From Isosphaera pallida ATCC 43644 (GTDB lineage: Bacteria; Planctomycetota; Planctomycetia; Isosphaerales; Isosphaeraceae), in contig NC_014962.1 in NCBI RefSeq assembly GCF_000186345.1, forward strand, positions 3,252,450 through 3,316,449: a stretch of DNA of 64,000 nt, in the 5' to 3' direction. This document shows positions 2,042-20,730 of this stretch, piece after piece. The notes beneath the pieces are model-generated. The model saw nothing but the letters and a program-made list of their open reading frames with translations. It had not been told where the DNA came from and did no database searches. The position numbers and the translations under genes were made by a program. Position 1 is the stretch's first letter, and each line of letters starts with the position of its first letter.

Positions 2042-5000
2042 ATGGAACCCCATTCCCCCCCTGACTCGTCGCCGACTGAACATGCTCCGGCGTCGCCCGC
2101 TGCGGCGAATGAGAAACTCGCCGCGCCTTCGCCTCCTCGAACCGTCCCTGCGCCTCCGTTGCGGGGGCAACATCGCCGTCGAACCAAGAGACGGTCGGGG
2201 GGCTTCTGGCGGGTCGTGTCCCGGCCGTTGCGTCGGTTGGTGGGGCGTTCCTCCTCGTCGGGAGGTTCCGGTTCGCGCGGACGCCCCGGTTCAATGGCGG
2301 TCGAGGTGGAAGGAACCACCGCCGTCCGCGATCGGACCAACGCCGCGGCCACGGACTTCCCAAACCCCAACGAATCCTCCCGCGGGCGGTCGGGCGACGG
2401 TGTCAAGCTCGGCGGTTCCCGTTCCTCGTTGAAACTGGTTTTGGCCGTCCTAGCGGCCGGCGTCGCGCTGGCGTTGGGGCTGGGAGCGCTTTACGGCCCT
2501 GGCTTGGTCAAACGTTACCAGACCCGATCGGCCCGTCTCGCCGCCTTCGAGGTCGCCGACGCTCGGTTGAACTCCGCCAACTACAACGACGCCCTCGACC
2601 CTTTGGCCGAGTTTCTCAAAACCCATCCCAGCGATTTTCGCGGCGTTGAGAAGGTGGTCGCCATTCTGCAAACCCATCGGGACAAACTGACTCGCGCTAA
2701 GCGCCAAGAAGCCGATCGTTTGATCCGCGAGGGATTGCGTTACCACAGCGCTCAGGTGCCCTGGCGGGTTCTCCTGGTGGACAACGCGATGGAGACCCGC
2801 GACTTCGACATCGCGTTGGATCAGGCGTTGGCGATTTCCGAGATCAATGGAGTGCGGGTCGAGGTGTTGGAACGCATCGCCGAACAATTCAAAGAGATTC
2901 CCGAAGGCGGGATCCGCACCGTCAAACGCCTGGTCTTTGCCGAACGCGCTGCCAAGAAGGATCTGCGCAATCCGTTGTTTCTCAAGGAGGGAGCGCGGGC
3001 TTCGCTGTTGTTGGGTCGTCGAGAGCAGGCGGAGGCCAAGCTGAAACAACTGACCCCCGACCAGGGACCGGAAAAGAACGGCGAGGCGGCCTACTTGATG
3101 GGCATCTGCCGGGCGCTGACCAAGAACACCGAGGAGGCGCAACGACTCCTCGCGCAGGCCTATCGACTTCAACCCGACCTGATCGAAGCCTACGCCGCCC
3201 ATGCTGCGTTGTTGCGTGGCCAGATGTCGGATGAGGCATTCCACTCGCCCATTGAGCGCCGCCCTCTGGAGGAGGTGTTGGAGCGGGTGATCCGGGCCAA
3301 CCCTGGGCGGGCTCAGGCTTATCTGGTGCGGGCTTCGTTCGGGGTGGACGCGGCCCAAATCGCCGCCGATCTACGCAAGGCCGCCCAACTCGCCCCCAAC
3401 GACCCCGAAGTGGTCTTCGCCCTGGCGGCTCTGCTTCAACGCGAAGGACGAACCGAGGAGGCGATCGAGCGGGTTCGCCCGGTCTTCGATGCCCAACCCG
3501 ACCATCCGGTGCTGTCGCGCGCTCTGACTGGTTTGCTGCTGTCCCGTGGCGACACCGACGAGGCGGTGGCGGTCTTCCGCCGTCACCTCGACGCAGCCCC
3601 CGACCTCGTGGAGGACCGCCTGGCGATGGGTGAATTGTTGCTCGGGCTGGAACGCCTCGATGAGGTCCGAACCCTCCTCGAACAGTGGCCCGAGTCCAAG
3701 CTGTTGGCAGCCCGCAAGAGCTTCCTGCAAGCCCAGCTGCTGGTCGCCGAACGCAAGTTCGGCGAGGCAATCGACCTGTTGGAAACCCAGGTGCTGCCCG
3801 AATTGTCTAACGACAAGCCGGTGGCTATGCGGGCCGCACAACTCCTGGCCTCTTGCCATGAGGCGTTGGGTCATCCCGAGGATCAACTCAAAGCGCTGCG
3901 ACAAGCCATTGCGCTCAACCCCGAGGCCGATTCCGCCCGCGCCCAACTCGGACTGGCGTTGCTGCGCCGCGGCCAGTTCGAGGACGCGCAACGCCAGTTC
4001 AACACGCTGGTTGGCCGTCGCGACGACGCTCTGGTGACCATCGCGTCGCTCCACCTGATCAAGACCCTGCGCCAGCCTCCCGAGATCCGAGACTGGTCGG
4101 TGGTGGAACGATCCCTGGCCGAAGCCCGTGCTGCGGACCCCGACTCGCCCCGCCCCAGATTCATCCAAGCCCAGATGTGGGTGGCGCGCGACGAGCTGGA
4201 CCAAGCCGAACGGGAACTCACCCAGCTCCGTCAGAAGTTCCCCGAGTTCCCCGACGCCTGGCCCCTGTCGATCGCCTTGGCGCGGGGACGGAACAACCTC
4301 TCCCAGGTCCGGGCGCTTCTGGTTGAAGCCGGCAACGCGCTGAGCGACCCCGAAGTCCGGGCCCGCACCCTCATCGCTGGTTGGCTAGCGGCCCGTCTGC
4401 CCGAATCGAGCGACGAGCTGGAAAAGCTGGCCCGCTCCCTGATGGACGCCGAAGCCGCCACCGCCACGGTCTCCCGCACCAAGCTAACCGAGACCACCCC
4501 GTTCAAACCGATCTCGGGTGAAGCGCTGGCTCGCCTGGTCGATGCCGTCGCGGTCCTCTCCGGCGACGAACGCGCCTTGACGGTCTTCGAGACCCTCCGC
4601 CAGCGACGACCCGACGACGTGGCCCTCTGGCTGGCGGCGCTGCCCCTGGCGCTTCGTAACAGCGACCTCAAGCTGCTCGAGCGGTTCCGGGACGTGGTCC
4701 GAGTCGGCGAGGGCCAAACCGGGGTTTGGTGGCGTCTGGCCGAGGTCTCCCGCCTGCTGATCGAGGCCCGTCAACGCAAAACCACCGACCTGTCCACCGT
4801 GCCCGACCTGCTGAGCCAACTCGATCGGGAACGACCCGACTGGACCATCCTTCCCCTTCTCAAGGCGGAATACGCCGACCTGCGCGGCAACGAACCCGAG
4901 GTGATCCAGGCACTTCAGGCCGCCCTCAAGCTGGAACCCACCAACTTCGCCATCGCCCGCCGTCTGGTCGAACGGTTGCAACGCCGTCAACGCTGGAACG

Positions 5001-7051
5001 AACTGGACGAGGCGATCCGCTTGGTGGAAACCCAGGCGGGACTCCCCTCCGACCTGCTCCAGGCCGCCCTCGATTTAGCGCTGCGTCGCAACGACGCCAA
5101 ACGCGCGACCGAACTCACTCAACGGCTCAACCGCGCCCAAACCACTGCTCAGGCCAAACCCGAGGATCGCCTGCGGTTGGCCCGGGCCTTGGCGATGGCC
5201 GGACGCGACCAGGACGCCCGCGACGCCCTCAAGGAAGTGATCGACCAGGTTCAAGCCCACCCCGCCCGCGCGGCGGAAGCCTGGCTGGTGTTGGTAGAAC
5301 TGGCCCAACGCCAAGGGGAGGCGGCGGAAGCCGGGCGTATCCTGGAGGAGGCGGTCATGCGGCTGCCCGAGGCGGAACGCCCCTTATTCCGCGCCCGCGG
5401 CTTGGCCCTCATGGGGCGGGGCGACGAGGCGACCGCCGCCTACGACCACCTTCTGGAGACGCGCGCCGCCCAAGCCAAGGCCAACGGCGATGCCGAAGCC
5501 CCCCTGGCCGACCTCCTGTTGATCCGGCTGGAAAAGGCGCGGGTCCAGGTATCGCTCAAGCGGTTCGATCAGGCCGAGGCCGACCTTCGAACGCTGCTGG
5601 GCGAAGCCTCCTCCCGCCCCGCCAATCAGGACCGGGGCCGCCTGGTCGCCGAACTGATCCCCGAGATTCGCCGGTCGCTGGCCGAGGTGTTGGCCCTCTC
5701 CGAACGACCGCGAACCCTCGCTCTGATCGACGAGGCCGCCAGCCTTCTGGAGCAAAACCTTCAGGTGCGCGACGTTCTAGAGGATCGTCGGATGTTGGGT
5801 CTGGTCCTGACTCAGATTCCAGCCCGCCAGGCCCAGGCCAAGGAACTGCTCGACCAGGTCGCCGCGGTCGATCAATTGCGGCCCAACGAGCAATACGCCC
5901 TGATCGTCCTGCGCGAGGCGCGTTGCGACTGGCCCCAGGCGAGGCCGCTGATCCGCGAGATGGTCGCGGCCCGTCAGGCCAGTCCCGCCCAAATGCACTT
6001 CTTCATCGACATGGCCCTGATGCGCCAGGATCTCGACCTGGCCACCGAGGTTCTGGAGGGACTCAGAGCCGTGGCTCCCAAGGGGGATGCCAAAGCCCAA
6101 CGCTCGATTAAGGTGGCTGCTGCCCGGCTCGAACACGCGCGCGGAGCGACCGAGCAGGCCCGCAAGATGGTCGCGGATCTGGTTCGCGTCGATCAACTCG
6201 ACCCGGTCGCCACCGCCAACCTGCTGAAGGAAATGGGGGACTTCGTGGCCGCCGAAGCGGTGTTGAGACAAACCTTGGCCACGACCCCTCAGCCCCAGGC
6301 CCGAATCCCGCTGCGGGTCGCGCTGGCCCGCTTGGCGGCCCTCCAGCGTCGTCACGCCGAAACCCTCACGGCCGCCCGCGAACTCCTGGAAGAACGTGAC
6401 TGCCCTCCCCGCGTGGTGGGAGAACTGCTGGCCTCGTGGGCGCTCCAGGCCCAGCCGCCAGCCGAGTTCCGCAGTCAAGCGCTGGCCTGGATCGAGTCGC
6501 TGCCGGATCGGATCGACCCGGTTCCCTTCCTTACCCCCGCGGCGCTTCTGCTCGATGCCGAGGGGCGTCACGCCGAGGCGATCGCCAAGTATCGTCTTTT
6601 GCTCCGCAGTGAACCGCAAAACTTCCCCGCTCTCAACAACCTCGCCTATCTGCTGGCACTAACCGAGACCGATCTCGACGAGGCTTTGGAATTGATCAAC
6701 CGCGCCCTGGTGCTCAATCAGCGGATCTCGAGCGTTCTGGACACCCGCGCCGTGGTGCTGCTGGCGCGCCGGCAAACCTCGGAGGCCATCCGGGATCTGC
6801 TCAAAGTCGTGGAAGATCGTCCCAGCAAGTTCGCCCTCTTCCACCTGGCGCTGGCCTATGACCAGGAACGCAAGACAGACACTGCGCGGGACTTTCTCGA
6901 CCGCGCGCTGGCCGCCGGTCTGACCGCCGAGGACTTGCACCCCCTAGAACGTCCCAAACTAGCTCGATTGCTCCGAGGCGACGAGGAGGACGATCAGAAC
7001 CAGGATGGGCGGACCTCCTCAACCAGCCCCGCCGATCCAAACGCCCGTTGA
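2042..7051 (+). CDS. Giant membrane-anchored TPR protein 1
   Basis: This protein of about 1,669 residues has one hydrophobic segment (about residues 131-151, LKLVLAVLAAGVALALGLGAL) after a basic, proline/serine-rich cytoplasmic-type N-terminus. The rest is an Ala/Leu/Arg-rich run of tetratricopeptide-like helical pairs reaching the C-terminus. TPR scaffolds bind protein partners; no catalytic motif is seen. The C-terminal part carries LNNLAYLLAL, a DTRAV helix and the end signature LHPLERP. All recur in the two genes that follow, so the three are paralogues. The start could be TTG 2036 or ATG 2042; ATG is chosen. By analogy with PrsT-type TPR proteins of exosortase loci, a role in assembly or export at the membrane is inferred from the downstream exosortase. 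Confidence 0.85.
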   Translation: MEPHSPPDSSPTEHAPASPAAANEKLAAPSPPRTVPAPPLRGQHRRRTKRRSGGFWRVVSRPLRRLVGRSSSSGGSGSRGRPGSMAVEVEGTTAVRDRTNAAATDFPNPNESSRGRSGDGVKLGGSRSSLKLVLAVLAAGVALALGLGALYGPGLVKRYQTRSARLAAFEVADARLNSANYNDALDPLAEFLKTHPSDFRGVEKVVAILQTHRDKLTRAKRQEADRLIREGLRYHSAQVPWRVLLVDNAMETRDFDIALDQALAISEINGVRVEVLERIAEQFKEIPEGGIRTVKRLVFAERAAKKDLRNPLFLKEGARASLLLGRREQAEAKLKQLTPDQGPEKNGEAAYLMGICRALTKNTEEAQRLLAQAYRLQPDLIEAYAAHAALLRGQMSDEAFHSPIERRPLEEVLERVIRANPGRAQAYLVRASFGVDAAQIAADLRKAAQLAPNDPEVVFALAALLQREGRTEEAIERVRPVFDAQPDHPVLSRALTGLLLSRGDTDEAVAVFRRHLDAAPDLVEDRLAMGELLLGLERLDEVRTLLEQWPESKLLAARKSFLQAQLLVAERKFGEAIDLLETQVLPELSNDKPVAMRAAQLLASCHEALGHPEDQLKALRQAIALNPEADSARAQLGLALLRRGQFEDAQRQFNTLVGRRDDALVTIASLHLIKTLRQPPEIRDWSVVERSLAEARAADPDSPRPRFIQAQMWVARDELDQAERELTQLRQKFPEFPDAWPLSIALARGRNNLSQVRALLVEAGNALSDPEVRARTLIAGWLAARLPESSDELEKLARSLMDAEAATATVSRTKLTETTPFKPISGEALARLVDAVAVLSGDERALTVFETLRQRRPDDVALWLAALPLALRNSDLKLLERFRDVVRVGEGQTGVWWRLAEVSRLLIEARQRKTTDLSTVPDLLSQLDRERPDWTILPLLKAEYADLRGNEPEVIQALQAALKLEPTNFAIARRLVERLQRRQRWNELDEAIRLVETQAGLPSDLLQAALDLALRRNDAKRATELTQRLNRAQTTAQAKPEDRLRLARALAMAGRDQDARDALKEVIDQVQAHPARAAEAWLVLVELAQRQGEAAEAGRILEEAVMRLPEAERPLFRARGLALMGRGDEATAAYDHLLETRAAQAKANGDAEAPLADLLLIRLEKARVQVSLKRFDQAEADLRTLLGEASSRPANQDRGRLVAELIPEIRRSLAEVLALSERPRTLALIDEAASLLEQNLQVRDVLEDRRMLGLVLTQIPARQAQAKELLDQVAAVDQLRPNEQYALIVLREARCDWPQARPLIREMVAARQASPAQMHFFIDMALMRQDLDLATEVLEGLRAVAPKGDAKAQRSIKVAAARLEHARGATEQARKMVADLVRVDQLDPVATANLLKEMGDFVAAEAVLRQTLATTPQPQARIPLRVALARLAALQRRHAETLTAARELLEERDCPPRVVGELLASWALQAQPPAEFRSQALAWIESLPDRIDPVPFLTPAALLLDAEGRHAEAIAKYRLLLRSEPQNFPALNNLAYLLALTETDLDEALELINRALVLNQRISSVLDTRAVVLLARRQTSEAIRDLLKVVEDRPSKFALFHLALAYDQERKTDTARDFLDRALAAGLTAEDLHPLERPKLARLLRGDEEDDQNQDGRTSSTSPADPNAR

Positions 7052-7411: not shown

Positions 7412-10400
7412 ATGGACGCTTTCCATCCCAAGTCGCCGGACGGATCCCCGCCCCGTTCCTCCGTCACTCCCGGCTCGGTCGGGGGAGCCTCCTCGCAACC
7501 GGAAGAAGGTCCGCCTGTCGGGGGGGGGGGAATGGGCGCGTCTGGATCCCGTCCCTTGCCGCAACCACATCCCCTGCCGGGTCGGATGCCCCTGGGTGGT
7601 CGATCGACGTCCCCCCCGCCCACCTCCCCTTCCCAAGGGTTCCATAAGCTCGCCGGACGTTCCAAATCGTTAGGCAAAATCCTGGCCAAGGGAGACTTCA
7701 AACCGTCCGAAGCATCCGAGCAGGGACCACGGATGCCCCACCTCCCCCGCCATCCCCTCAACGAACCGGCTGGTCAGATCGAAGCGCGGCGGTTGATGGT
7801 GATCGTCGGAGTGGTGCTGCTGGTGGCGATCACAGGGGTCGGCGCGTTGGTGGGGCCGAGCTATTACCAACGCTTCCAAACCCGCCAGACCCGCATCAAT
7901 GCAATCGAGAAGATCCGGGAGAGTCTGACGCGCAAGGATTTCTCCCAAGCGATCGCCATCAGCGGTGAATTCCTCAAAGCCAATCCTGGCGACTTCCGAC
8001 TGCCTGCCGAACTCAACACGATCCTGTTGACCTCGCTGGACGAACTCAGCGACGATCAGGCCCGTGAGGCGATCGTTGTCCTCAACGAGGCGCTGAGGTA
8101 TCATCCCCAACAGGTGCCTTGGCGCGAAACGGTTCGGAAACTGGCGGTCAAGACGCGCGACTTCGAACAAGCCGCGACTCAGGCATTCCGGCTGGCGACG
8201 ACGCCCCGGGTCGATGTCAAGTTCATTGAGGACGCGCTAGACGATCTGGCCAAACTAGGCGACTCACCGTTTTGCCGCTACCAACGGTTTGCCATCGCAG
8301 AGGCAGCGGTCAAGAACACGCTCAACAACCCGACGATCACCCGTCGGGCAGTCAAGGCGGCGCTTGACGTGGGCCAATTCGAGACCGCCTCGAAATTGTT
8401 CGAGGGGATCCACAAAGGGAGCGACAACGACGCGGAACTCCTCTACTTCCAGGGGGTGTTGGCCTCGTCGCAACGGCGGTTGGAGCGCAGCCTGGAACTG
8501 TTGAACGCGGCGATCGCCAAGGATCCCGGCTTGCTCGACGCTCACGCCGCTCGTTTGGCGGTGCTGGCGTCGGACCCGACGACCCGCGGCCAGATCGACG
8601 AGGCAGTCTCGGCGATGCTGGCGGCCAACCCCGGCCAAGCCCGCGCGCATCTCATTGCCCATCAGATCTACCGGGGGATCAACCCGGATCGGGCCCAGAT
8701 CGAAATCGAGCGGGCCGGCGAACTCGAACCCCTCCATCCCGAAGTGGTTCTCACGCGGGCACGCGAAGCGATCAAAGCCAACCAAATCGCCTCGGCGATC
8801 GCGTTGATTCAGCAGGGTTGGAATGTTCAGCCGATGGACGACCGACTGCCAGTCCTGCTGGCCTCGCTCTACGTGAGCGAAGGCAAGCCGGAACTGGCCA
8901 TCGACGTCCTGGAACGGGCGATGAAGTCGCTGTCGTTCTCGATTCCGATCCGCGAAAGCCTGGCCGACACCTACCTCGTCGCCAACCGCCTGGACGATCT
9001 GGACAAGTTCCTCGCAGCCTGGCCCAAGAGCGACAACCCGCTCAACGAGTCGGCCAAGGACTACATGAAAGCCCTGGCCCTAGTGGCCCGGTCCCGACCC
9101 AGCGACGCCCTGCAAATCCTCGACCCGCTCATCACCCGCCTAAGCGACGAACCAGAGCGTCGCATCCGGGCGTTGCTGCTGGCCGCCCGCTGCCACGCCG
9201 AACTCGGACGTCTGGACGACCGCATCCGGGCTCTGTCCCAAGCGGTCGCCTCGCTGAACGAACCGCTCCGGAACCTGGTGGAGCGGGATCGCGGTCAGAA
9301 CCAAGTCAACGACTCGTTTGCGAACATGATCCGATCCGCGGCCCTCGAAGCGGCCGCCTTGAGCCTCAACCGAGCCACCATCCAAGACGAGTTGGCCCGC
9401 GACTGGGTCCAAATCGATCGAGCCATTTCGGAGGCAATCCGGCTCAACCCGGGCGACCCAGCGGCGGAATTGATGCGGGTCCAAGCGATGTTGCTGCGGG
9501 GCCAGGTCGAACAAGCCGACCAACTCCTCGCCTCGTTGCGCGGCCGTTATCCCCAAAACCCAGTGGTTTGGAGCTCCTCGGCGGTGCTGACCCATCGACG
9601 GGGCGACCCGGCTGGTGGGCGCGACCTGGTGCGTCTGGCCCGTCAAACCATCCTTGACCCCGTCGAATCCCTCCGCGCCCAAATCGACGCCTACGCCCTC
9701 ATGGGAGACAAGGAATCCCTCGCCGCCCTCAAACGCCTGGTGGGTGAAGTCTCAGGTCTTCCTCCCGAATCACGTCGGCCCCTCGCGTCGCGCATTCTAC
9801 AAATCCTCCTGGCCTCCGAAGGAGCCGATGCCGCTTCCGAAGCACTCGAGCAACTAGCCCAAGCCGATCCCGACAACCCCGAGTTGATGCGGTTCGACCT
9901 GGAACTGGCAATGGCCCGCCGGGACGAGGAGGCGTTGAGCCGTCTGCGCGACCAGTTCCGACGGGTTCAGGGGCCCGACAGTCGTGAGGCCAGCCTCGCT
10001 GATGCCGCTCGGTTGATGCTCCGCCACATCCAAGCCGTCAACCGAAGCCAGACCGGTCCCACGCCGTTGGCTGAGAACTCGGCCCCACCGCCAGCGGACG
10101 CGGCCTCTTCCCCGGAGTTGACCCAAGCCCGCGCGATTTTGGAGAAACTCGCCCGCTCCCAACCCGACTGGTACACCGTCTGGCTCTTCCTAGGGGATCT
10201 CGCAGTGCTGGAGCGCAAGTCCGACGAGGCGATCGCCCACGGCCGCAAAGCGCTCGAGTTGGCCCCCGACAACCTGCGGGCAGGTCGCTTTCTCGCCAAT
10301 CAGTACGCCCTAGCTGGACGTTGGAAGGATCTCGATGAACTGATCGCCCAGCTTGAAACGAAAATCCGGCTCACTGACGACCTGCGTGCTATGGCCGCTG

Positions 10401-12292
10401 AAGTGGCCATCCGACGCGGCAACCTGCAACGCGCCCAGGATATGTCCAAAGCACTGGACGACACCAGCCTCGCCGGTCTGGTCACCAAAGCGCGGATCGA
10501 ACAGGCGTCCGGTCAGGCGATCAACGCCATCGTTACCTACCGTAAAGCCCTCACCCTCTACCGCAAGCTGCTGCCCGAACAACGCGCGGCTCAGGCCGAG
10601 ATTGCTTCGGAAATCTATCCCCTTCTGGTCGAGCAGTTGCGTGTTACCAACGCTGCCCCTGAAGCTCGCGCCCTCATGAGGCAAATCGAACGCGATCTGC
10701 CCGACCCCGTGCTGCGCGAGTTCACCCTAGCCCGCTGTCACCATGTTCTGGAGGAATACGACCAGGCGCAAGCCCTCTACGACAAAGTGCTGGCCCAGCG
10801 TCCCGAGTTCGGCCGAGCGTTGATCTGTCGGGCGATTTTGGGAGCCAACCGTCGTCAACTCGACCAGGCCGAGGCCGACCTCAGACGCACCCTGGCCATC
10901 GCCAACCTGCCCGCGGCGATTCAAATCGAAGCCCGCCGCAAACTAGCCGAACTGATTCTGATCGGCCCCTCCTCCGATCCCGCCAAGCTGGCGGAGGCGC
11001 TCAAGTTGATCGAAGCCAACAGCCTGATCCTGGGAGAAACTCTGGAGGACAAACGGCTGCGGTCGATCGGCCTGATCCGCCTGCCCGATCAGGTGCCCGC
11101 GGCCATCGCGCTGCTGGAGGAGATCGCCCGGCTGGAGCCGCTCAAACCGATTGAGCGGTTCCTACTGGCCCTCGCCTACGAGGCCCGTTGCGATTGGCCC
11201 AAAGCGCGACCGATGTTCACACAATGGCTCAATGATCGCGACGCCGTGCCCGCGCAACTGGAAATCGCTGCCCGAGTTTTCCTGGATCGCAAGGATCGGG
11301 AACTCGCCTCGATCGCCCTAAGCCGCTTGACTGAGCCCCAGCCTGGCATGTCGTCAGAGACACCACCGGCCCCCTCCCCCCGGATCAAGGCGTTGCAGGC
11401 GCGGTTGGCCCACCTCAAGGGAGATGCTCGCACCGCGACGACGCAACTCGATCAACTCGAAAAGACCCGGGCCCTGCCTGACCTGGAGCTGGCCGCGCTC
11501 TGGGAGTCAATCAATCAACCCGAGCGTGCCGAATCCCTGCTGCGCCGAGCCGCCCAGGCCCGCGACGCCACCGGCCCGCTCGCCCGCGGCCAACTCGCCG
11601 GGTTCCTCGCCCGCCGGGGCCGGGCCGCCGAAGCGCTCGAACGCCTCAAGGCGGGCCTTGGCGAGTTTCCCAATCCGGTCATCACCGACCTGGTTGGCCA
11701 AATCCTCGACCCCCGCTCAGGAGTCAACGAAGCCATCCTCAGCGAATTGGAGTCGATCGTCGAAGCACGGATTAAGCAGGACGAACGGAACAACCTAGCC
11801 GACTTCGGCCTGGCGCTGGCTCTCATCCGCGACACCCGCGGCCACCACGCCGAAGCGGCCGCCACGTACCGCCAAGTCCTCGCCATCCAGCCGGACAACT
11901 TTGTGGTCCTCAACAACCTCGCCTTCCTCCAGGCTCTGGGAGCCGACGCCGAAGGCACCCTCGCCGAGGCCCGTCGCAATATCGATCGCGCGATGAACTT
12001 CACCCGTCGGGTCGGCGACTTGATGGACACCCGCGGGTTAGTCCTACTCAAACAAGGGGAGGCCGATTCAGCCATTCAGACCCTTCTCAAGGTCGTCGGC
12101 GATCGCGATGACCCCGTCGCCCTTTTCCATCTCGCCCGCGCCTGCGAGGTCGCCAACCGTTTGGAGGAGTCACGCAGCTGGCTCAAGGAGGCCGAGGCGA
12201 AGGGACTCAAGCCCGAGTTGCTCCACCCTTTGGAACGTCCCGATCTCAAGCAGCTTCGGGACCGCCTCCAAGCCAGTCTAGCGAATCGCTAA
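7412..12292 (+). CDS. Giant membrane-anchored TPR protein 2
   Basis: This is a paralogue of the preceding protein, about 1,626 residues from the ATG at 7412. The N-terminal 125 residues are Pro/Gly/Ser-rich. One hydrophobic segment follows (about 127-148, LMVIVGVVLLVAITGVGALV), then YYQRFQTRQTRINAIEK, which matches the post-membrane region of TPR1 (VKRYQTRSARLAAFE). The remainder is TPR-like to the end, with LNNLAFLQAL and the C-terminal signature LHPLERPDLKQL. A run of 11 G (7520-7530) lies inside the coding sequence around residue 37. An in-frame ATG follows directly at 7532 and could serve as an alternative start. Function is unknown; it is probably a scaffold working with its paralogues and the exosortase. 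Confidence 0.85.
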   Translation: MDAFHPKSPDGSPPRSSVTPGSVGGASSQPEEGPPVGGGGMGASGSRPLPQPHPLPGRMPLGGRSTSPPPTSPSQGFHKLAGRSKSLGKILAKGDFKPSEASEQGPRMPHLPRHPLNEPAGQIEARRLMVIVGVVLLVAITGVGALVGPSYYQRFQTRQTRINAIEKIRESLTRKDFSQAIAISGEFLKANPGDFRLPAELNTILLTSLDELSDDQAREAIVVLNEALRYHPQQVPWRETVRKLAVKTRDFEQAATQAFRLATTPRVDVKFIEDALDDLAKLGDSPFCRYQRFAIAEAAVKNTLNNPTITRRAVKAALDVGQFETASKLFEGIHKGSDNDAELLYFQGVLASSQRRLERSLELLNAAIAKDPGLLDAHAARLAVLASDPTTRGQIDEAVSAMLAANPGQARAHLIAHQIYRGINPDRAQIEIERAGELEPLHPEVVLTRAREAIKANQIASAIALIQQGWNVQPMDDRLPVLLASLYVSEGKPELAIDVLERAMKSLSFSIPIRESLADTYLVANRLDDLDKFLAAWPKSDNPLNESAKDYMKALALVARSRPSDALQILDPLITRLSDEPERRIRALLLAARCHAELGRLDDRIRALSQAVASLNEPLRNLVERDRGQNQVNDSFANMIRSAALEAAALSLNRATIQDELARDWVQIDRAISEAIRLNPGDPAAELMRVQAMLLRGQVEQADQLLASLRGRYPQNPVVWSSSAVLTHRRGDPAGGRDLVRLARQTILDPVESLRAQIDAYALMGDKESLAALKRLVGEVSGLPPESRRPLASRILQILLASEGADAASEALEQLAQADPDNPELMRFDLELAMARRDEEALSRLRDQFRRVQGPDSREASLADAARLMLRHIQAVNRSQTGPTPLAENSAPPPADAASSPELTQARAILEKLARSQPDWYTVWLFLGDLAVLERKSDEAIAHGRKALELAPDNLRAGRFLANQYALAGRWKDLDELIAQLETKIRLTDDLRAMAAEVAIRRGNLQRAQDMSKALDDTSLAGLVTKARIEQASGQAINAIVTYRKALTLYRKLLPEQRAAQAEIASEIYPLLVEQLRVTNAAPEARALMRQIERDLPDPVLREFTLARCHHVLEEYDQAQALYDKVLAQRPEFGRALICRAILGANRRQLDQAEADLRRTLAIANLPAAIQIEARRKLAELILIGPSSDPAKLAEALKLIEANSLILGETLEDKRLRSIGLIRLPDQVPAAIALLEEIARLEPLKPIERFLLALAYEARCDWPKARPMFTQWLNDRDAVPAQLEIAARVFLDRKDRELASIALSRLTEPQPGMSSETPPAPSPRIKALQARLAHLKGDARTATTQLDQLEKTRALPDLELAALWESINQPERAESLLRRAAQARDATGPLARGQLAGFLARRGRAAEALERLKAGLGEFPNPVITDLVGQILDPRSGVNEAILSELESIVEARIKQDERNNLADFGLALALIRDTRGHHAEAAATYRQVLAIQPDNFVVLNNLAFLQALGADAEGTLAEARRNIDRAMNFTRRVGDLMDTRGLVLLKQGEADSAIQTLLKVVGDRDDPVALFHLARACEVANRLEESRSWLKEAEAKGLKPELLHPLERPDLKQLRDRLQASLANR
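7520..7530 (+). repeat. Poly-G tract (11 G) inside coding sequence
   Basis: Eleven consecutive G residues lie near the 5' end of the second TPR gene, encoding part of a Gly run. Homopolymers of this length are prone to slippage, and an indel would take the ORF out of frame. Confidence 0.9.
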
Positions 12293-12716: not shown

Positions 12717-15700
12717 ATGTCCAAACCTTCCCAAAGTCCCGCTGGTGGCCCTCCGCTCGGTCGGGGTTTCGGTTCCCTACCCCGTCTCGACGCGGTTCAA
12801 ACTGGACGGACCCGAGCCGAGATCCCCGAATGGGATTCCTCCTTCCTGCTCAAAGCCATTCTGGGCGGCCTGCTTCTGGTGATTTTGATCCTCGGCGCGA
12901 TCTTCGCGCCAGGCATCTACGACCGCTGGCGGATCCAGCGGGATCGCACGGCGGCCCTCGAAAGCTTTGACGCCGCTCTCGAACGCCGCGACTTCCAAGC
13001 CGCCCTGGAGGCTCTCAAGCCGTTTCTTACTCACCATCCCGAAGATTTCCGATCCCACGATCATCTCGCCGAGTTTCTGAACCAGCCTCCCGAATGGATG
13101 GAAACCGACCAGATTGCATCGTTGGACTCCCTGCTGCTCGACGGCTTGCGTTTCCACCCCGATCAGATCGATTGGCGTCGCGCTCTGATGACGAACGCGC
13201 TGCGACGCGGCGACATAGAAACCGCGCTGGATCAGGCCGAATGGATCGTCACCACCACAGGGGTTCCGATCGAGGTGGTGGTGGACGTGATCGACCGGCT
13301 GGAGGCTTTGGGGGACGCCCCCCTGGTTCAAGCGCGGCGACTGGCCATGCTCGAATATGCAGAGCGACAAAACCGTGAAGATCCCCAAATCCTAATCCGA
13401 CTGGTTCGATACAACGCCCGAGCGCGTCGTCCCGAGGCCATGATCCGCGACCTCAAGCCTCTAGTTCGCATGCGTCCGGACGATCCGGAGCTGATCTATC
13501 TGACCGGGGTGGTTCAAAAGCTCCAGGGCCGCGAAGCGGAGGCGGCCGAACTGTTTTCCCGCGCTCGTCAGGCCGACCCCAACCTCATCGCCGCCTGGCA
13601 GGGCGAACTCGAACATCTCTTGAAGTATCAAGCTACCCGCGAACGAGGATGGCGGTTGCTAGGTCAGTTCATACAAGCACACTCCTCCAATCCTGCGGCT
13701 CATCTTGCCGAGGCGCGGGTTTGCCAGCGTCTGGACCCGGAGCGCGCCGCCCGAGCCCTGCAACGCGCCCATGAACTGGATCCCACTTCGCCTGACCCGG
13801 CGCTGGGTTGGAGCGAGGCGCTGGTCAGCGATCAACGCTTCGAGGAGGCTCTAACGCTGTTGGCGCGTTTTTCCGACCGCGAGGTGTTCGATCCCCGCTT
13901 CGCCCTGCAACGCGCTCGGATTCTCAAACGCGCCGGACGCCCTCTGGAGGCGCTGGCCGTCTTGCGAACCGCCTGCGCCCGCTTTCCCGAAGCGCGTCGG
14001 CTCCGCTTCGATTTGGCCGACCTTCTCTTGGAGTTAGACCGCCGCGAGGAACTCGATGTCGAACTGGCCCAATGGCCCAACCTGCCAGCGCTCGAGCCGC
14101 TGCAGCAGTTCTTCAAAGGAATGATCCTCGCTCGCTCGAACCGACCGGGTGAGGCCGTCGCACCTCTGACAAACGCCTTAAACTCACTGAAAGACGACTC
14201 GGAAACGGCCGTGCGCGCCGGCCTGACCCTGGCCAACTGCTTACGGCTCTTGGATCGGTTCGACGAGCAAATCCGAGTTCTGAAGAACGTGCTGGACCTG
14301 GACCCCAAGCGTTCCACCGTTCGGGCCCGGTTGGCTGATCTCATGGGGTGGAAAGGGCGTTTGGACGACGCGCTGCTTGTGGCCGCTCCCCTGGGTTCGA
14401 CGTTTACCCGGGCCCGTCTTCTTCTGGCGTGGCTGGAATACGCCCGCCTGCTTGAGACCGATCCCAAGTCGCGCAGCTGGAATGGGTTCGATGCGATGTT
14501 GATTGACCTGCGCGAGGTGCTGCCAACTGATCCAGGCATGCGATTGCTCAGCATTCAGGGCCATTTGGCCCGTGGGCGTCCCGAAGCGGCCTCCGAACTT
14601 GACGAGGCGCTGCGGCGTCATCCCGATCAGGCCGCCTTCCTCGCGCTTTCCGCTGCGCTGGAGGCTCGAGCTGGACGGAGCGAATCGGCCCGCAACCGTT
14701 TGGCTCAACTGGCTCGCGCTCCCCTTGACCCGTTCGATCGCGCCTGGGGGCTAATTGCTGGGTGGTCCCAGGTGGGTGGTCCCGAGGCGGTCGCGGCCCT
14801 CAAGGACATGGTCGGGCCCGTCGAGCAACTCGCCGGCGATCGCGGCGACCGCGTACGCGCCTATTTGCTAGCGACCCTCAGCGGGTTGGGACAAGACGAG
14901 GAAGTCCGCCGGATTCTGGAACGCTGGTCCGACCAGTTCGCCGGCAACGCCCACTTGCGCCGCTTCGACCTGGCTTTCGCGTTGGAGCGGCGCGACTCCC
15001 CCCGTCTGGCTCAACTCCGCGACCACTGGCGTGCGATCGAGGGATCCGGGGGCGTTTGGTGGCGGTTGGCTGAAGCGGTTCGCCTGATCATTGAGGCCGA
15101 GACCCCGTCCTCCCCCTCGGACCAACGCGCAGAATCTCACACGGCTGGGGCCGTCGATCGGACGCCTGGTTCCCGCGTCGCCGCCGAGGCGACCGGGCTG
15201 GCTCAAGCCGACGCTCTCCTGGCCGACCTGACTCAACGTCAACCCGCCTGGTCGTTTGTGCTGACGCTCCGAGGCCGAATCGCCGCCCGCGTCCGACGTT
15301 GGGATCAGGCCATCGAGCACGCCAACCAGGCGTTGAAGATTGACCCGGATTCAGTGGCCGCCGCTGAACTGCTGCTTGGATCGTTGGCGGCTCAGGGCCG
15401 CTACGCCCAACTCGACGCCGCCCTTAACAAGTTAAGGCCCCAGATCGGCCAAACCTCTCTCATGCGGATTCTCGCCGTGGAGGCGGCCCTGGCCCGCGAC
15501 GACTTGAACCGCCTAGCCGACCTTCTGATCGAGGGCGGGTCCGAAGCATTGCACCGGCACGACTCGGCGGTGCCTCCCAAGGCAATCCCCATCGACCCGT
15601 CCGACGACATCGCTCCGCTCGTGCGGGAGGGTCGCGCCTTGGAGCGGTTGGGGTTGTACGCCTCCGCTGTGGACCGTTACCGCGAAGCGATCGTCCGCGC

Positions 15701-17522
15701 GCGCCGCACCCAACGCCCCGACGAGGCGCTGGACGCCTGGAGCGGTTGGGCCTCCACCCTGACTCGCTACTCGGGACGGGATCAAGACGTTGCCAAAGTG
15801 CGCGAGGCCGCCGCCAAGGCGCTGAGCCCTACGGCGTTGGCGGTCCTCGACGCCCGGCTCCATCGCAACGCCGGACGACTCGACGAAGCGTCCGCCGCCC
15901 TCGAACGGGCTCGCAAGACCGCCTCGGCAGCGGAACGCGCCGAGATTCGGCTGGAAGCCTCCGAAGTTCATCTCCAGGCCGGCCGGTTCGATCAGGCCGA
16001 GTTCGAGGTGCGGGCCGTTCTGGAAGCGAACCCCCAGGACCAACCCGCCACCGCCAGCCAACTCGAACGGGCCCGCCGCCGTTTGGCCGATCTGTTGGCG
16101 CTACGCGATCGTTCCAACCCCTCCGGGACCGATCCCCAACGCGGCGCGGGGTCCGAAGCGGCCGCGGTCGCTGAGTTCATAACCGGCGTGGACCCAGCGC
16201 GTTTGACCGAGGCCCTGGAGTTAATCGCCACCAACCTGGGGCGTCCCGGTGGTCCGCTGGCCGACGACCTACGGATCCAAGCCGCCATTCTGGGACGCTT
16301 TCGGGATGGCGAGCGTCGTCGTCAGGCGATCCAACTGATCGAACAGGCCGCCATGTTCGACCCCGGACGCTCGGAGGATTGGCTCCGGGTGGCGGAGTTG
16401 GCTCGGATCAATCTCGATTGGCCCTCCGCGCGTCGCGCCTACGAACGCTACTTGAAGGAAGACCGGATCGACCTCGATCGGGTCGCGTCGCTGGCGTGGG
16501 AGTTTCTGGAACGCGGCGACACCGCCAACGCCTCAACCGCCGTGAGAATCCTGGTTCAACGTCAGCCCGCAATGGGCCGCACCCGCTTGCTCCAAGCCCG
16601 TCTGGCCCACGCCGAGGACAAACGAGTGCTGGCGATGAACCTCACGAACGTAGCGCTGGCCGACGATTCGATCCCGTTGATCGACCGAGCTCGGTTGCTT
16701 GAGCAGACCGGACGGCTCAACGAGGCGATCCAGTTGCTGGAGCCAGAGAAGCTGGACGATCCGGCCGCCTGGCCCGATCCGGCGTTGCGTCGGGAATCGG
16801 CCCGCTTGCTTAGTCGGGCGGGTCGTCCCGAGCGACTGCTGGACCTGATCGACGAATACCTCGCCCAATTCGACCAGAGGGCCCAAGCTCCCCCCTCCAA
16901 CAAACCGTTGGTTGATCCCGCCCTCACCCGAACCCTGGCCGACCTGGCCGCCCAAGCGCTCGACCGCCGGATCGATCTGGACCCCTCTCAACTGCTTCGG
17001 TTCGATCGCACCCTCAATCGAGCCATCAGCGCGACCGCCCAAGATCCCCAGGGCATCGCCTTCTTCAACGCCTTGGGTCTGCTGAGAGATCGCCAGGAAC
17101 GCTACGACGAGGCGATCGAGTGCTTCCGCCGAGTCCGCGCCGCCCAACCTAGTCACCGCCAGGCCAGCAACAATTTGGCTTATTTGCTGGCACTGTCCCG
17201 CCGCGACCTGCGTGAAGCCTCCCAGGCCGTCAACGACGCGATCCAAAGCGGAGGGCCCCTTGGCAACCTATTGGACACCCGCGGACTCGTCGCGCTGGCC
17301 CAAGGTCGCCTGGATCAAGCGGTCAACGACTTCCAAGCCGCGCTGAACGACAAGAACGACCCGGTCATCCGCTTCCACCTGGCTTGGGCCTACTTCCTGT
17401 CGCGCAACTTCGACGAAGCCGGCGTCCGGCTCGCTCAAGCCCGCCGGGACGACCTCCTAGAAACCGACCTCCACCCCTTGGAACGTCCCATCTACCGCAA
17501 ACTCGTCGAGGATCTGCCATGA
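12717..17522 (+). CDS. Giant membrane-anchored TPR protein 3
   Basis: This is the third paralogue, about 1,601 residues. It has a short N-terminus, one hydrophobic segment at about residues 43-63 (LLKAILGGLLLVILILGAIF), then IYDRWRIQRDRTAALESF and continuous TPR-like helices. Shared with TPR1 and TPR2 are an early block RFHPDQIDWRRAL (RYHSAQVPWRVLL in TPR1, RYHPQQVPWRETV in TPR2), SNNLAYLLAL, LLDTRGLVAL and the end signature LHPLERPIYRKL. The stop codon overlaps the exosortase start (ATGA at 17519-17522). This indicates translational coupling and makes a shared function with the exosortase likely. Confidence 0.86.
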   Translation: MSKPSQSPAGGPPLGRGFGSLPRLDAVQTGRTRAEIPEWDSSFLLKAILGGLLLVILILGAIFAPGIYDRWRIQRDRTAALESFDAALERRDFQAALEALKPFLTHHPEDFRSHDHLAEFLNQPPEWMETDQIASLDSLLLDGLRFHPDQIDWRRALMTNALRRGDIETALDQAEWIVTTTGVPIEVVVDVIDRLEALGDAPLVQARRLAMLEYAERQNREDPQILIRLVRYNARARRPEAMIRDLKPLVRMRPDDPELIYLTGVVQKLQGREAEAAELFSRARQADPNLIAAWQGELEHLLKYQATRERGWRLLGQFIQAHSSNPAAHLAEARVCQRLDPERAARALQRAHELDPTSPDPALGWSEALVSDQRFEEALTLLARFSDREVFDPRFALQRARILKRAGRPLEALAVLRTACARFPEARRLRFDLADLLLELDRREELDVELAQWPNLPALEPLQQFFKGMILARSNRPGEAVAPLTNALNSLKDDSETAVRAGLTLANCLRLLDRFDEQIRVLKNVLDLDPKRSTVRARLADLMGWKGRLDDALLVAAPLGSTFTRARLLLAWLEYARLLETDPKSRSWNGFDAMLIDLREVLPTDPGMRLLSIQGHLARGRPEAASELDEALRRHPDQAAFLALSAALEARAGRSESARNRLAQLARAPLDPFDRAWGLIAGWSQVGGPEAVAALKDMVGPVEQLAGDRGDRVRAYLLATLSGLGQDEEVRRILERWSDQFAGNAHLRRFDLAFALERRDSPRLAQLRDHWRAIEGSGGVWWRLAEAVRLIIEAETPSSPSDQRAESHTAGAVDRTPGSRVAAEATGLAQADALLADLTQRQPAWSFVLTLRGRIAARVRRWDQAIEHANQALKIDPDSVAAAELLLGSLAAQGRYAQLDAALNKLRPQIGQTSLMRILAVEAALARDDLNRLADLLIEGGSEALHRHDSAVPPKAIPIDPSDDIAPLVREGRALERLGLYASAVDRYREAIVRARRTQRPDEALDAWSGWASTLTRYSGRDQDVAKVREAAAKALSPTALAVLDARLHRNAGRLDEASAALERARKTASAAERAEIRLEASEVHLQAGRFDQAEFEVRAVLEANPQDQPATASQLERARRRLADLLALRDRSNPSGTDPQRGAGSEAAAVAEFITGVDPARLTEALELIATNLGRPGGPLADDLRIQAAILGRFRDGERRRQAIQLIEQAAMFDPGRSEDWLRVAELARINLDWPSARRAYERYLKEDRIDLDRVASLAWEFLERGDTANASTAVRILVQRQPAMGRTRLLQARLAHAEDKRVLAMNLTNVALADDSIPLIDRARLLEQTGRLNEAIQLLEPEKLDDPAAWPDPALRRESARLLSRAGRPERLLDLIDEYLAQFDQRAQAPPSNKPLVDPALTRTLADLAAQALDRRIDLDPSQLLRFDRTLNRAISATAQDPQGIAFFNALGLLRDRQERYDEAIECFRRVRAAQPSHRQASNNLAYLLALSRRDLREASQAVNDAIQSGGPLGNLLDTRGLVALAQGRLDQAVNDFQAALNDKNDPVIRFHLAWAYFLSRNFDEAGVRLAQARRDDLLETDLHPLERPIYRKLVEDLP

Positions 17523-18577
17523 CCTCTTCCACGTGGCCCGACCCGCCGCCCGACCCCGCCGGCGCGGTCCGCTCGACCTTCCCCTGGGGGATCTGGAGCC
17601 TGGGGGCGCTGGCTTCGCTGCCGTGGTTGGCCGCCTTGGTTCAACACTTGTGGAATCGTCCGTTTTCGGAGCATTTCCCCTTAGTGTTCGTGGGGATTGG
17701 CCTGTTGGCTTGGCGTAACCTGGGATGGACGCGGTTGGAGATGCCGGGTCGAGCGGTTCGTTGGCTAGGGGGATTCGTGCTGGCTCTCTCCTGGCTGGGT
17801 CTGGCGTTGTCCTGCTGGTTGTCGGCCACCCGGTTCGCGCTTTGGCTAGCCTGTTTGTCCACCGGACTGATGGCTTTGGGGGCGGCGCTACGGGTAGGTG
17901 GACTGCGCGCGGCCAAGGCGCTGGGACCCAGCCTGTGCATGGCCGCCTTGATCGTGCCGCCGCCGTTTGGTCTGGACACCCGCCTGCTTCTGTTCCTTCA
18001 AGGAATCGCCGCCAGGGGCAGCGGCTTCCTGCTGGACCAGTTCCAGATGATTCACCGGGTTTCGGGCAACGTCATTGAAACCCCCGGGCGTCGTCTCATG
18101 GTCGAACAAGCTTGCTCGGGCATCGAATCGTTGATGACCGTGTTGCCTGCGGTGCTGTTTTTCGGCTCCTGGCTGAGGCGGCCCGCCTGGCACCTGACCG
18201 CCCTGACCGCCCTGGCGGTCGCCTTCGACCTGATTGCCAACATCCTGCGCATCGTGGCCTGCGCGTTAGCCTACGCTTGGTTCGACGTGGATTTGTTCAG
18301 CGGCGCGTCGCACACTGTCTTGGGCATCGTCCTGTTCATCTTCACGCTGGGGCTCACTGCCAGCGGCGACCAGGTGTTGCTCCAGCTTGGCGTGGTGATG
18401 AAGCGACTGAGACCAGCCTCGACTCCTCGCTACGTGCAAAATGCTCCCGCGCTGTTTCATCAACCCCAACGGTTGGTCCGTGGTGGTCGCGTCGTCCGGT
18501 TTCCCTCCCGGTCGCGGCCCTGTTTGCTGTGCTTGGAGTCGTCGCCGTGTTGCAACCGTCGGTCCGAGGCTCTCTAG
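17519..18577 (+). CDS. Exosortase, planctomycete type, frame-broken C-terminus
   Basis: Exosortases are polytopic membrane cysteine proteases or transpeptidases that process C-terminal sorting signals of surface proteins. Several hydrophobic segments are present from residue 20 on. The predicted catalytic triad is visible: Cys in VEQACSGIESL, Arg in NILRIVACA and His in SGASHTVLGIV. The start is the ATG of the ATGA overlap with TPR3; the longer open frame upstream lies inside that gene. The frame makes sense up to about VVMKRLRP (near 18415). The last 50 or so residues are low-complexity Arg/Ser/Cys-rich and look out of frame, while an EpsI-like domain continues in the -1 frame. The family is probably the planctomycete exosortase U group; that assignment is from memory and not certain. 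Confidence 0.88.
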   Translation: MTSSTWPDPPPDPAGAVRSTFPWGIWSLGALASLPWLAALVQHLWNRPFSEHFPLVFVGIGLLAWRNLGWTRLEMPGRAVRWLGGFVLALSWLGLALSCWLSATRFALWLACLSTGLMALGAALRVGGLRAAKALGPSLCMAALIVPPPFGLDTRLLLFLQGIAARGSGFLLDQFQMIHRVSGNVIETPGRRLMVEQACSGIESLMTVLPAVLFFGSWLRRPAWHLTALTALAVAFDLIANILRIVACALAYAWFDVDLFSGASHTVLGIVLFIFTLGLTASGDQVLLQLGVVMKRLRPASTPRYVQNAPALFHQPQRLVRGGRVVRFPSRSRPCLLCLESSPCCNRRSEAL

Positions 18578-19335
18578 ACGCCTCGGCCCCCTGGTGGAAA
18601 CCCGCCCTAGGCGAACTCCTCAAAACCGCCTATCACCCCCCCGACAGCCTCGACTCGGGCCGCTGGCGCAGAGTCAATCCCGAAGAGGCGTCACAAGTCG
18701 CTGTCCGCTCGGCCGAATCGTCCAGCGACTCTGGAGAGATCCAGCGGCCCGACCTAGTTCGTCGGGAAAGCACCCACCACCTGGGCGAATGGTCTCGTGT
18801 CTTTACCTATCACAATGGACGGTTCGCCGCGACCGTCTCCATCGATTTTCCCTTCCAGGGCTGGCACGATCTGGGCGTCTGCTACACCAGTAGCGGATGG
18901 CGGATCGAACGTCAGGATCTTCAAGGAATCCCAGAGAAGATCATAGGGCAAGGCGCGGATCCCAGCGTGGGTTCCGAACCGGAGATGCCAGCGATTCCCC
19001 GAATGCGGGTCATGCTCAACAAGCTGGGGATCTCTCGGGGAGTGCTGATCTTTGGTCTGGCCGACGACAACGGCTCCTGGCTGGAACCACCCCGCTCCGC
19101 ACGGGGATTGGCCCAACTGTTCGCGCAACGGGCCAGCCTACCGCGTTCGTGGTATCAGGTGCAGGTCATGGTGGCCAGCGGCACCCCCTTCAACGACGCC
19201 GATATCGCCGAGATCGAAGCCTTGTTCCTGGCCATCGCCACTGACCTGGAAACTCAGATATTCGCCCCCCATCGTGCTGGTGCGCCGGTTTCAAATCCCC
19301 CCGCTGCCAGCGTGGCCGCTCGTCAACCTCGATGA
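18421..19335 (+). CDS. EpsI-like domain, probably the C-terminal half of the exosortase gene
   Basis: This frame (-1 relative to the exosortase) gives a hydrophobic segment (LPVAALFAVLGVVAVL), then a soluble domain with FPFQGWHDLGVCYTSSGW. That WHD...CY...GW pattern is characteristic of EpsI/exosortase-associated domains. No ATG or good ribosome-binding site precedes the membrane segment. The only near candidates are GTG codons inside it, so the left boundary given is approximate. The simplest reading is one exosortase-EpsI fusion of about 600 residues interrupted by a frame change near 18400-18430, either a real mutation, a sequencing error or recoding. The C-terminus (after LETQIFAPH) is a short Pro/Ala tail. 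Confidence 0.75.
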   Translation, partial: DSSLRAKCSRAVSSTPTVGPWWSRRPVSLPVAALFAVLGVVAVLQPSVRGSLDASAPWWKPALGELLKTAYHPPDSLDSGRWRRVNPEEASQVAVRSAESSSDSGEIQRPDLVRRESTHHLGEWSRVFTYHNGRFAATVSIDFPFQGWHDLGVCYTSSGWRIERQDLQGIPEKIIGQGADPSVGSEPEMPAIPRMRVMLNKLGISRGVLIFGLADDNGSWLEPPRSARGLAQLFAQRASLPRSWYQVQVMVASGTPFNDADIAEIEALFLAIATDLETQIFAPHRAGAPVSNPPAASVAARQPR

Positions 19336-19458
19336 CCAAGCCATGCCGCCTTGCCCCAAGGCGGACCTCCAAGACCTCGACCCGGCTTGCGCGAGAACGG
19401 GTCCACGCCTTGGATTTCTCCTTGCTTGTTGACCCCTTCCTGGAACCCTTGGCACGCC

Positions 19459-20730
19459 ATGACCCTCCCCGCCCAACCAGTCGATGGATCCAACCCACCG
19501 ATGAGTGTCGAGATTGACCCGGAACCGCTCCCGTCCTCCCCACCGAATCCCAACCCGAATCCACTAGAATCCACCAAGGTGGATTCCAACTCACCCCTTT
19601 CCAGTCCCGCTCCCGCCGCCGTTGCGACCGAGGCCAACGATAGGGAGGAGCCGGTTGTGTCGGTTTGGGGGATGATGCCCGCGCTGATTGTGTTGACGCT
19701 GGCCGCGGCGGCCTGGATCGGCGCGGAGGCGGGTTGGTTCGACGATCGTTCGGTTGAGTATGTGAGGCTGGCTGAACAGGCGATGGCCGACGGAGATTAC
19801 AATCTCGCGCGGTTGTGCTACACCCGTTTAGTCGAACAACGCGGCAACATGCCCGATGACCTCCGAGGGTTGGCGCTGGCGCTGCTGCGCCAGGGAGACG
19901 TTCAGGCCGCCGGCGCGCTGAGGGATTACCTGACCCCCTCGGACCTGGCCGAACTCATAGCGCGTGATTCGTCCCACCGTTCCCCTAACGACGACCAAGG
20001 CACCCACGCCAACGCGGGCGACCCCCGCGACGATCCCCAGACCTGGAACCACGCGGCACGGCTGGAACTCGCCCGGGTGCAAATCGAGACCGACGATTTT
20101 GAGAAAGCCGCCCGCACCCTTGAACCAGGTTGGCGGGTCACTCGATTGGAAGAATATCGTCAGATGCTGGCACGTTTGTATCTTGCCTGGTTCGATCGGG
20201 CTCAGCGTCTGAACTTACCTTTGCCTTTAGACTTTTGGGAGCGTGTGGTGGTTCATTTGGCCGACCACGAGGATTTGCAACCGATTGTTTGGCGACGTCT
20301 GACTCAAGGTGAATCGTCCAGTTCCCCTTCCTCTCCATCCTCTGCCGAAGGTCGCCAGACCAAGGTGATGGAGGCCGAAGCCCAGACCAACTCCACATCC
20401 TCGGCGACTGGGTTGTGGGAACGTCTGACACGGTTGGCCCGAGGTGCCAATCTTGACGAACGGGAATTCGACGCCCAGCTTGTGGTCCGAGTGGCCGCGC
20501 TTGGTCTAGGAGCGGCCCGTTGCGACGACCTCAACGACATTTGGCCGACCGCCCGTGTCATGGTCGAGGCGGTTCCAAATTCGTGGGACCAGGTGACGCC
20601 CAGCCTCAAGGCCGCGCGACTCTGGTTGCGCCAACGTCTGGAACCAGATTCGGCTGCCGACCTTCAAGAGCAGCTCGACCATCTCCTCAACACGCTGGAG
20701 GGGCCGCGTGGCAACCCCTCCCAACCATGA
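19459..20730 (+). CDS. Membrane-anchored TPR-like protein, last gene of the TPR/exosortase operon
   Basis: This product of about 423 residues starts at the ATG at 19459 (MTLPAQPVDG). It has a Pro/Asn/Ser-rich N-terminus, one hydrophobic segment (MMPALIVLTLAAAAWIGAEAGWF), then a TPR-like pair (LAEQAMADGDYNLARLCYTRLV) and further helical repeats interrupted by low-complexity linkers. It lacks the LHPLERP signature, so it is not a fourth close paralogue. It lies 123 nt after the EpsI-like stop in the same direction. Function is unknown; membrane topology and context suggest a partner of the giant TPR proteins. Confidence 0.75.
   Translation: MTLPAQPVDGSNPPMSVEIDPEPLPSSPPNPNPNPLESTKVDSNSPLSSPAPAAVATEANDREEPVVSVWGMMPALIVLTLAAAAWIGAEAGWFDDRSVEYVRLAEQAMADGDYNLARLCYTRLVEQRGNMPDDLRGLALALLRQGDVQAAGALRDYLTPSDLAELIARDSSHRSPNDDQGTHANAGDPRDDPQTWNHAARLELARVQIETDDFEKAARTLEPGWRVTRLEEYRQMLARLYLAWFDRAQRLNLPLPLDFWERVVVHLADHEDLQPIVWRRLTQGESSSSPSSPSSAEGRQTKVMEAEAQTNSTSSATGLWERLTRLARGANLDEREFDAQLVVRVAALGLGAARCDDLNDIWPTARVMVEAVPNSWDQVTPSLKAARLWLRQRLEPDSAADLQEQLDHLLNTLEGPRGNPSQP

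Follow-up and report, generated by a model that had tools for sequence, protein, structure and literature searches.

Exosortase systems are widespread, and little is in print on the tetratricopeptide repeat (TPR) proteins that accompany them. One such companion, PrsT, was named by Haft in 2006, in a paper whose Table 1 gives several PrsT genes for some genomes, including genes with consecutive locus tags (PMC1569441). In Aquincola, PrsT was reported as required for floc formation, prsT mutants failing to flocculate (PMC9850573), and this was the only published phenotype found for a TPR companion of an exosortase. LbcA, in turn, is a spiral TPR adaptor thought to bring substrates to the processing protease CtpA (PMC8764530). 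The present analysis concerns three giant TPR proteins, TPR1, TPR2 and TPR3, encoded directly upstream of an exosortase of type XrtU in Isosphaera pallida, of which strain IS1B is described as a gliding, filamentous hot-spring planctomycete (PMC3072084). The window, that is, the whole stretch of 64,000 nucleotides analysed (G000:C2:3252450-3316449), lies on the chromosome of 5,472,964 bp; the genome also includes a plasmid of 56,340 bp.

A literature search, mostly of open-access papers, found no account of planctomycete TPR-exosortase loci among the papers listed, and XrtU as a search topic returned only unrelated literature. In the available portions of planctomycete papers on exosortase, the enzyme is mentioned only in the references or beside N-acyl amino acid synthases, and the main text of a comparison of Isosphaeraceae genomes contains none of the words exosortase, TPR or tetratricopeptide (PMC5352709). 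The reading slightly favoured here is that of an XrtU-type unit made up of a putative single TPR partner of the usual kind and a lineage-specific trio of giant PrsT-like proteins, the TPR arms of which would serve as sorting adaptors.

Three giant paralogues upstream of XrtU

The trio, the exosortase and the TPR gene that follows it are arranged as follows.

2042..7051, + strand: TPR1, giant one-helix TPR protein with a basic/proline-rich N-terminus, 1669 aa from ATG; open frame from 2036
7412..12292, + strand: TPR2, paralogue, 1626 aa from ATG; open frame from 7184
12717..17522, + strand: TPR3, paralogue, 1601 aa from ATG; open frame from 12462, with another in-frame ATG at 12549
17519..18577, + strand: XrtU exosortase domain, 352 aa; PF09721 at 121.7 bits
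18496..19335, + strand: linker membrane helix and XrtU C-terminal domain (NF033780), in a frame offset by -1 from that of the exosortase
19459..20730, + strand: smaller anchored TPR protein (P0006), 423 aa from ATG, in the usual slot of an XrtU partner; open frame from 19351

Pairwise BLASTP alignments of TPR1-3 gave 30%, 27% and 29% identity over 1578, 1605 and 1566 columns (E 1e-137 to 7e-88), and the paralogy spans almost the full length, from the membrane helix onward. A single N-terminal helix is predicted in each protein, beginning at residue 127, 122 and 39 of TPR1, TPR2 and TPR3 (from the assumed ATGs), and TPRs were matched by Pfam families on TPR1 and by NCBIfam models on all three giants. 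By their sequences, the three are thus paralogues built on one plan, a predicted helix followed by TPRs. Near the membrane they share a block that reads RYHSAQVPWR in TPR1, RYHPQQVPWR in TPR2 and RFHPDQIDWR in TPR3; further blocks are NNLAYLLAL, NNLAFLQAL and NNLAYLLAL, then DTRAVV, DTRGLV and DTRGLV, and LHPLERP in all three. The stop of TPR3 and the start of the exosortase share ATGA at 17519-17522, and the gaps within the trio are 360 bp (TPR1-TPR2) and 424 bp (TPR2-TPR3) if the ATG starts are right. An earlier note, made from the letters of the window, had described three consecutive paralogous TPR proteins of about 1,600 residues with one helix each, their common blocks and the overlap of TPR3 with the exosortase; all of this holds, the blocks with small variants.

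For comparison, giants from other genomes (search described below) were re-extracted by homology; from 46 candidate frames plus one on the I. pallida plasmid, 38 were kept at more than 40 bits, giving 41 with the window trio. NNLA[YFWM] occurred in 29/41 and [DR]T[RL][GA] near the end in 37/41, and the NNLA and DTRG-type blocks are therefore general to giants; HPLE near the end was present in 12/41. The membrane-proximal block, [YF]HxxQ[VI]xW, was found only in the three window proteins. When this block was searched over 297 genomes of the class, strong matches were obtained only in I. pallida itself, and 26 other genomes matched at E 5e-6 to 8e-4, several of these matches being in giants; since the matches outside its own genome are weak, the block gives no clear orthologues. 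A scan of genome contigs with the query A1 yielded 25 stretches that fit a pattern, none of which was confirmed.

In a quick tree of 40 giants, one partial row having been dropped, the trio formed one clade (Shimodaira-Hasegawa-like approximate likelihood ratio test, SH-aLRT, 100; TPR2+TPR3 92). The branches of this tree are long, and the composition of several rows is unusual. The long branches, about 1.1-1.4 changes per column, and the spacers within the trio would fit an ordinary tandem duplication without joint function, its products belonging to unrelated complexes; yet all three giants have retained both the [YF]HxxQ[VI]xW block and the LHPLERP end, and we hold this explanation to be quite unlikely. 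Among models in NCBIfam, the best match of TPR1, TPR2 and TPR3 was PrsT (TIGR02917; 174.2, 174.1 and 122.3 bits), which was also the best match of three relatives' giants and of the one XrtU-partner TPR protein scanned. As expected of PrsT, the trio has a TPR array and its genome encodes both exosortases and PEP-CTERM proteins; the lipoprotein signal of PrsT is missing, no cysteine occurring in the first 180 residues of TPR1-3 (from assumed ATGs, and judged by cysteine position alone).

Structures were predicted in an AlphaFold run on the three window sequences with TPR1 as target. The model of residues 1000-1671 of the TPR1 open frame was all helix, with a predicted local distance difference test score (pLDDT) of 86.9 and a predicted template modelling score (pTM) of 0.74. 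That of residues 130-1129 was likewise all helix (pLDDT 81.1), its overall bend being unsure because the pTM was 0.50. Together the models comprise about 80 helices, overlap allowed for. LbcA was among the Protein Data Bank (PDB) fold matches of the C-terminal model and also among the sequence matches to the query A1.

XrtU, its split gene and TPR partners

The exosortase frame matched PF09721 at 121.7 bits, over the cut-off of 25.7, and TIGR02602 at 93.8 bits, under its cut-off of 105.55. The XrtU_C domain (NF033780; 113.4 bits against a cut-off of 40) was found in a separate open frame, 18112-19335. By its domains, then, the exosortase of the locus is of type XrtU, and since its two domains lie in different frames, the exosortase gene is split. 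The earlier note recognized the exosortase domain correctly and missed both XrtU_C in its different frame and the split. Within the open exosortase domain ACSG, NILR and SHTVLG can be read, presumably the Cys/Arg/His catalytic pattern of the family.

Of 12 proteins from XrtU regions of relatives that were compared with the window DNA, 11 matched first in frame 1 and further on in frame 3, and the remaining one, a fragment at a contig edge, matched frame 3 (XrtU_C) alone. A hydrophobic linker helix was present 125-170 residues after the Cys of C[SNT]G in 24 of 29 other XrtU frames (36 were compared, 7 without the motif in range being left out); the exosortase frame of the window has no such helix there (0.14), whereas the shifted frame does, at 127.7 codons. 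The starts available in the shifted frame are TTG 18112 and TTG 18277, which lie far into the exosortase gene, and GTG 18529, which falls within the helix; there is no start codon between 18277 and 18529. Codon usage around TTG 18112 and 18277 favours the exosortase frame, and codon-usage scores weakly favour a switch of frame near 18478-18514 (29.8 at 18496 vs 25.2 at 18526). A programmed frameshift at an X_XXY_YYZ heptamer was considered and not adopted because no such heptamer occurs in the exosortase frame at 18380-18577; independent initiation of XrtU_C was considered as well, the candidate starts lying where just described. The XrtU gene may thus be disrupted, truly split or affected by a sequence error, and XrtU_C is perhaps lost or separately made.

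Among 93 XrtU_C rows from the class, a few of them fragments of a single frame, located at a contig end or scoring under the cut-off, 78 frames were of at least 500 aa, 13 of less than 320 aa and 2 in between (442 aa, and 418 aa for the window). One of the short frames, on the - strand of L148 (G099), encodes XrtU_C as a protein by itself, headed by a hydrophobic N-terminal segment of its own; the surrounding DNA analysed held no other match to the XrtU model.

These data bear on a further explanation, that the exosortase is a decaying pseudogene (or a sequence error) and the giants are general envelope TPR scaffolds beside it for historical reasons. Such decay would account for XrtU_C and the linker helix standing in a shifted frame with ill-placed starts, where codon usage at TTG 18112 and 18277 favours the exosortase frame, and giants were not found in the stretches analysed of other XrtU regions. 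Yet the exosortase domain is open, its presumed catalytic pattern is readable and the ATGA coupling with TPR3 is kept; 13 of the 92 other XrtU_C rows are also short (some at contig ends), including the one with its own hydrophobic N-terminus, and the error rate claimed for the IS1B genome sequence is less than 1 in 100,000 (PMC3072084). This explanation is considered unlikely.

To survey the neighbourhood of XrtU, eight TPR proteins encoded next to it were made into a model, which was run on 36 XrtU regions of 28 genomes, that of the window excluded. A TPR gene stood beside XrtU in 26 of the 36, or in 18 of 28 when the eight seed regions are left out. It came upstream in one of the 26; in the other 25 it followed XrtU immediately and in the same orientation, with a gap of -78 to +110 bp. 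Partner lengths were 491-604 aa in 24 of the 26, the remaining two having 201 and 803 aa. All-against-all clustering without the model, over 37 regions including the window, placed the TPR family in 25/37; the third family of this clustering occurred in 13/37, always within 6 kb, and its one scanned member, which includes a chain-length-determinant region, is a polysaccharide tyrosine autokinase. At control loci (503 kb in 23 regions, mostly around giants or non-XrtU exosortases) the partner-TPR model matched 18 giants at 36-100 bits and, besides these, two open reading frames (ORFs), of 439 aa (33.6 bits) and 689 aa (14.7 bits). The protein P0006 of the window, the further anchored TPR protein that had been noted after the exosortase and is confirmed here (open frame 19351-20730, ATG 19459), has the partner position, a helix and TPRs; its 47 bits on the same model fall within the range of the giants, and it is without the C-terminal NNLA/DTRG block.

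Giant TPR proteins and exosortases in Isosphaeraceae

A model of the trio was used to search 45 Isosphaeraceae genomes (E <= 1e-30), and matches were obtained in at least 33 of them, I. pallida included. As at most the best 11 candidates were scored per genome, counts of giants are lower bounds. An exosortase was present in 45/45. At least 47 places with giants were found outside the I. pallida genome, of which 23 lay within 60 kb of an exosortase (2.4 expected) and 8 within 10 kb (0.4 expected); the expected counts assume uniform positions and unbroken contigs, and match pieces of one frame were merged. The planctomycete counterpart of the exosortase-PrsT association suggested by the earlier note is borne out by this enrichment and by the TPR gene that usually follows XrtU. 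Its idea that triplication accompanies exosortases generally finds no support, no second tandem of giants having been found in the 45 genomes among the matches listed. The exosortases at the eight closest places have frames of 315-375 aa, and they are therefore single-domain enzymes with no room for XrtU_C, a domain found in only 7/45 genomes of the family.

A polysaccharide tyrosine autokinase (TIGR01007, over cut-off) adjoined the exosortase in 6/6 scanned loci with a giant and an exosortase, five from Isosphaeraceae and one from another family, and one of the six also held WecA-like and glycosyltransferase genes. These six loci are thus polysaccharide loci. The I. pallida plasmid (56 kb) carries a row of a DUF3485 gene, a ParA-type ATPase gene, an exosortase and an anchored giant TPR protein of 1,634 aa (L033 14985-19901, L034), which was missed by the trio-model search and found through its neighbourhood. 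In the tree this giant stands apart from the trio and groups with five relatives' giants, four of them within 6 kb of an exosortase.

The giants might, then, be scaffolds of polysaccharide export and not exosortase adaptors, exosortases being near them because exopolysaccharide loci carry both. The giants resemble the TPR parts of BcsC, PgaA or AlgK, and weak NCBIfam matches to BcsC and PgaA were obtained. The autokinases of relatives, the plasmid row and the family with one scanned autokinase member near 13/37 XrtU regions all point this way, as does the flocculation defect of prsT mutants (PMC9850573). At the window locus itself, on the other hand, the ORFs scanned within 2-40,848, part of those there, yielded no glycosyltransferase, chain-length kinase or export gene. 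A local export machine is therefore unsupported, as is the polymer-export role that the earlier note had proposed for the locus, and export scaffolding is regarded as a rather unlikely alternative.

Of the flanking genes identified, a divergent P-type ATPase lies upstream of the trio, and downstream are a DAHP synthase (opposite strand), a pectate-lyase-like protein and a sigma-54 activator. The activator, at 26033-29395, has 1,120 aa and about nine predicted membrane helices, and it scored 304.5 bits on the model of the PEP-CTERM-box regulator, below the cut-off of 502.6. Two arms of an inverted repeat flank the space between TPR1 and the ATPase.

1974..2002, + strand: inverted-repeat arm, 29 nt, about 40 bp upstream of TPR1
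1511..1539, - strand: second inverted-repeat arm, 29 nt, about 10 bp upstream of the open frame of the divergent P-type ATPase

The arms are 90% complementary with an identical 20-nt core, and a 19-nt core had no further copy in the genome at up to 2 mismatches. Promoter (3 vs a chance mean of 1.7) and terminator (14 vs 18.2) scans gave no clear excess. The I. pallida genome has 3 exosortases and 11 listed PEP-CTERM matches, 10 of them over cut-off. The third exosortase (about G000:C2:4443910) is preceded by a protein of 1,129 aa that has one helix and a long stretch rich in proline; its N-terminus we take to be FHA-like.

Putative sorting adaptors and their closest counterparts

The trio is probably a lineage-specific expansion of PrsT-like scaffolds for an exosortase system, acting as substrate or assembly adaptors. 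In the proposed mechanism, the TPR superhelices of the giants would extend as arms outside the cytoplasmic membrane, where they may bind C-terminally tagged (PEP-CTERM-type) proteins, envelope partners or both. Bound proteins would be carried to the exosortase or to their destination, by analogy with what LbcA does for CtpA, and three diverged giants could have different clients. A bolder version, which we think improbable, is that Planctomycetia have a dedicated sorting module of two genes, those of XrtU and its TPR protein, with the TPR spiral selecting tagged clients and delivering them to the exosortase, and that the I. pallida giants are arms across a wide periplasm, each handing a different set of clients from the exosortase to the outer envelope. 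The reach of TPR arms across the periplasm would follow from TPR geometry.

Several findings weigh against the adaptor reading. XrtU is broken in the window and does not form the continuous protein seen as frames of at least 500 aa in 78 of the 92 other rows. No partner TPR gene was found in 10 of the 36 other XrtU regions, nor did the partner-TPR model find any TPR protein of 1,000 aa or more in these 36, some of the stretches being short. None of the trio reaches the PrsT cut-off of 312 bits, and none of the listed PEP-CTERM matches of the genome falls inside the window. The PDB fold matches of the C-terminal model of TPR1 are long TPR superhelices, mostly eukaryotic and with low TM-scores, and are therefore evidence of fold, not of job. 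Lastly, of the 47 giant places, 21 are on contigs, many of them short, that carry no exosortase, and at 3 more the only one is over 60 kb away. Homologues that regularly lack a nearby exosortase were what the earlier note had named as telling against its proposal, and the outcome is divided, these places being set against the 23 of 47 within 60 kb.

On sequence grounds, the trio is a known type of gene that has undergone an unusual local expansion, and the recurrent XrtU-TPR pair is a new, small result. With only two genes, the pair is a compact system for testing the adaptor idea. The trio shows that expansion on the TPR side need not involve the enzyme. The split frame of XrtU is a warning that the enzyme of the window locus may not be whole.

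The closest counterparts differ in what they share with this locus. LbcA (PDB 7rqf/8sxe) resembles the giants in its TPR superhelix and in being among both their fold and their sequence matches; unlike them it is a lipoprotein of about 540 aa, and the analogy is one of work only, CtpA, its protease, not being known to be related to exosortases. PrsT resembles the trio as its best NCBIfam match, in its TPR array and in its genomic link to exosortase/PEP-CTERM systems, whereas the trio has 1,600 residues against a model of 899 positions, a membrane-helix anchor instead of a lipoprotein signal, a score under the cut-off, three members in tandem and a link to XrtU. The relatives' giants are of 1,400-1,600 aa with one N-terminal helix in most of those examined, and in the best pairs they show 27-28% identity to TPR1 over about 1,220-1,310 residues; the trio differs from them in its own clade, its private membrane-proximal block and its location with XrtU. 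Finally, the XrtU-TPR units of relatives are like that of the window in the exosortase domain, the XrtU_C domain and the downstream TPR gene, and the window locus is set apart from them by its split frame, by a fourth TPR protein without the NNLA/DTRG end and by three giants upstream.

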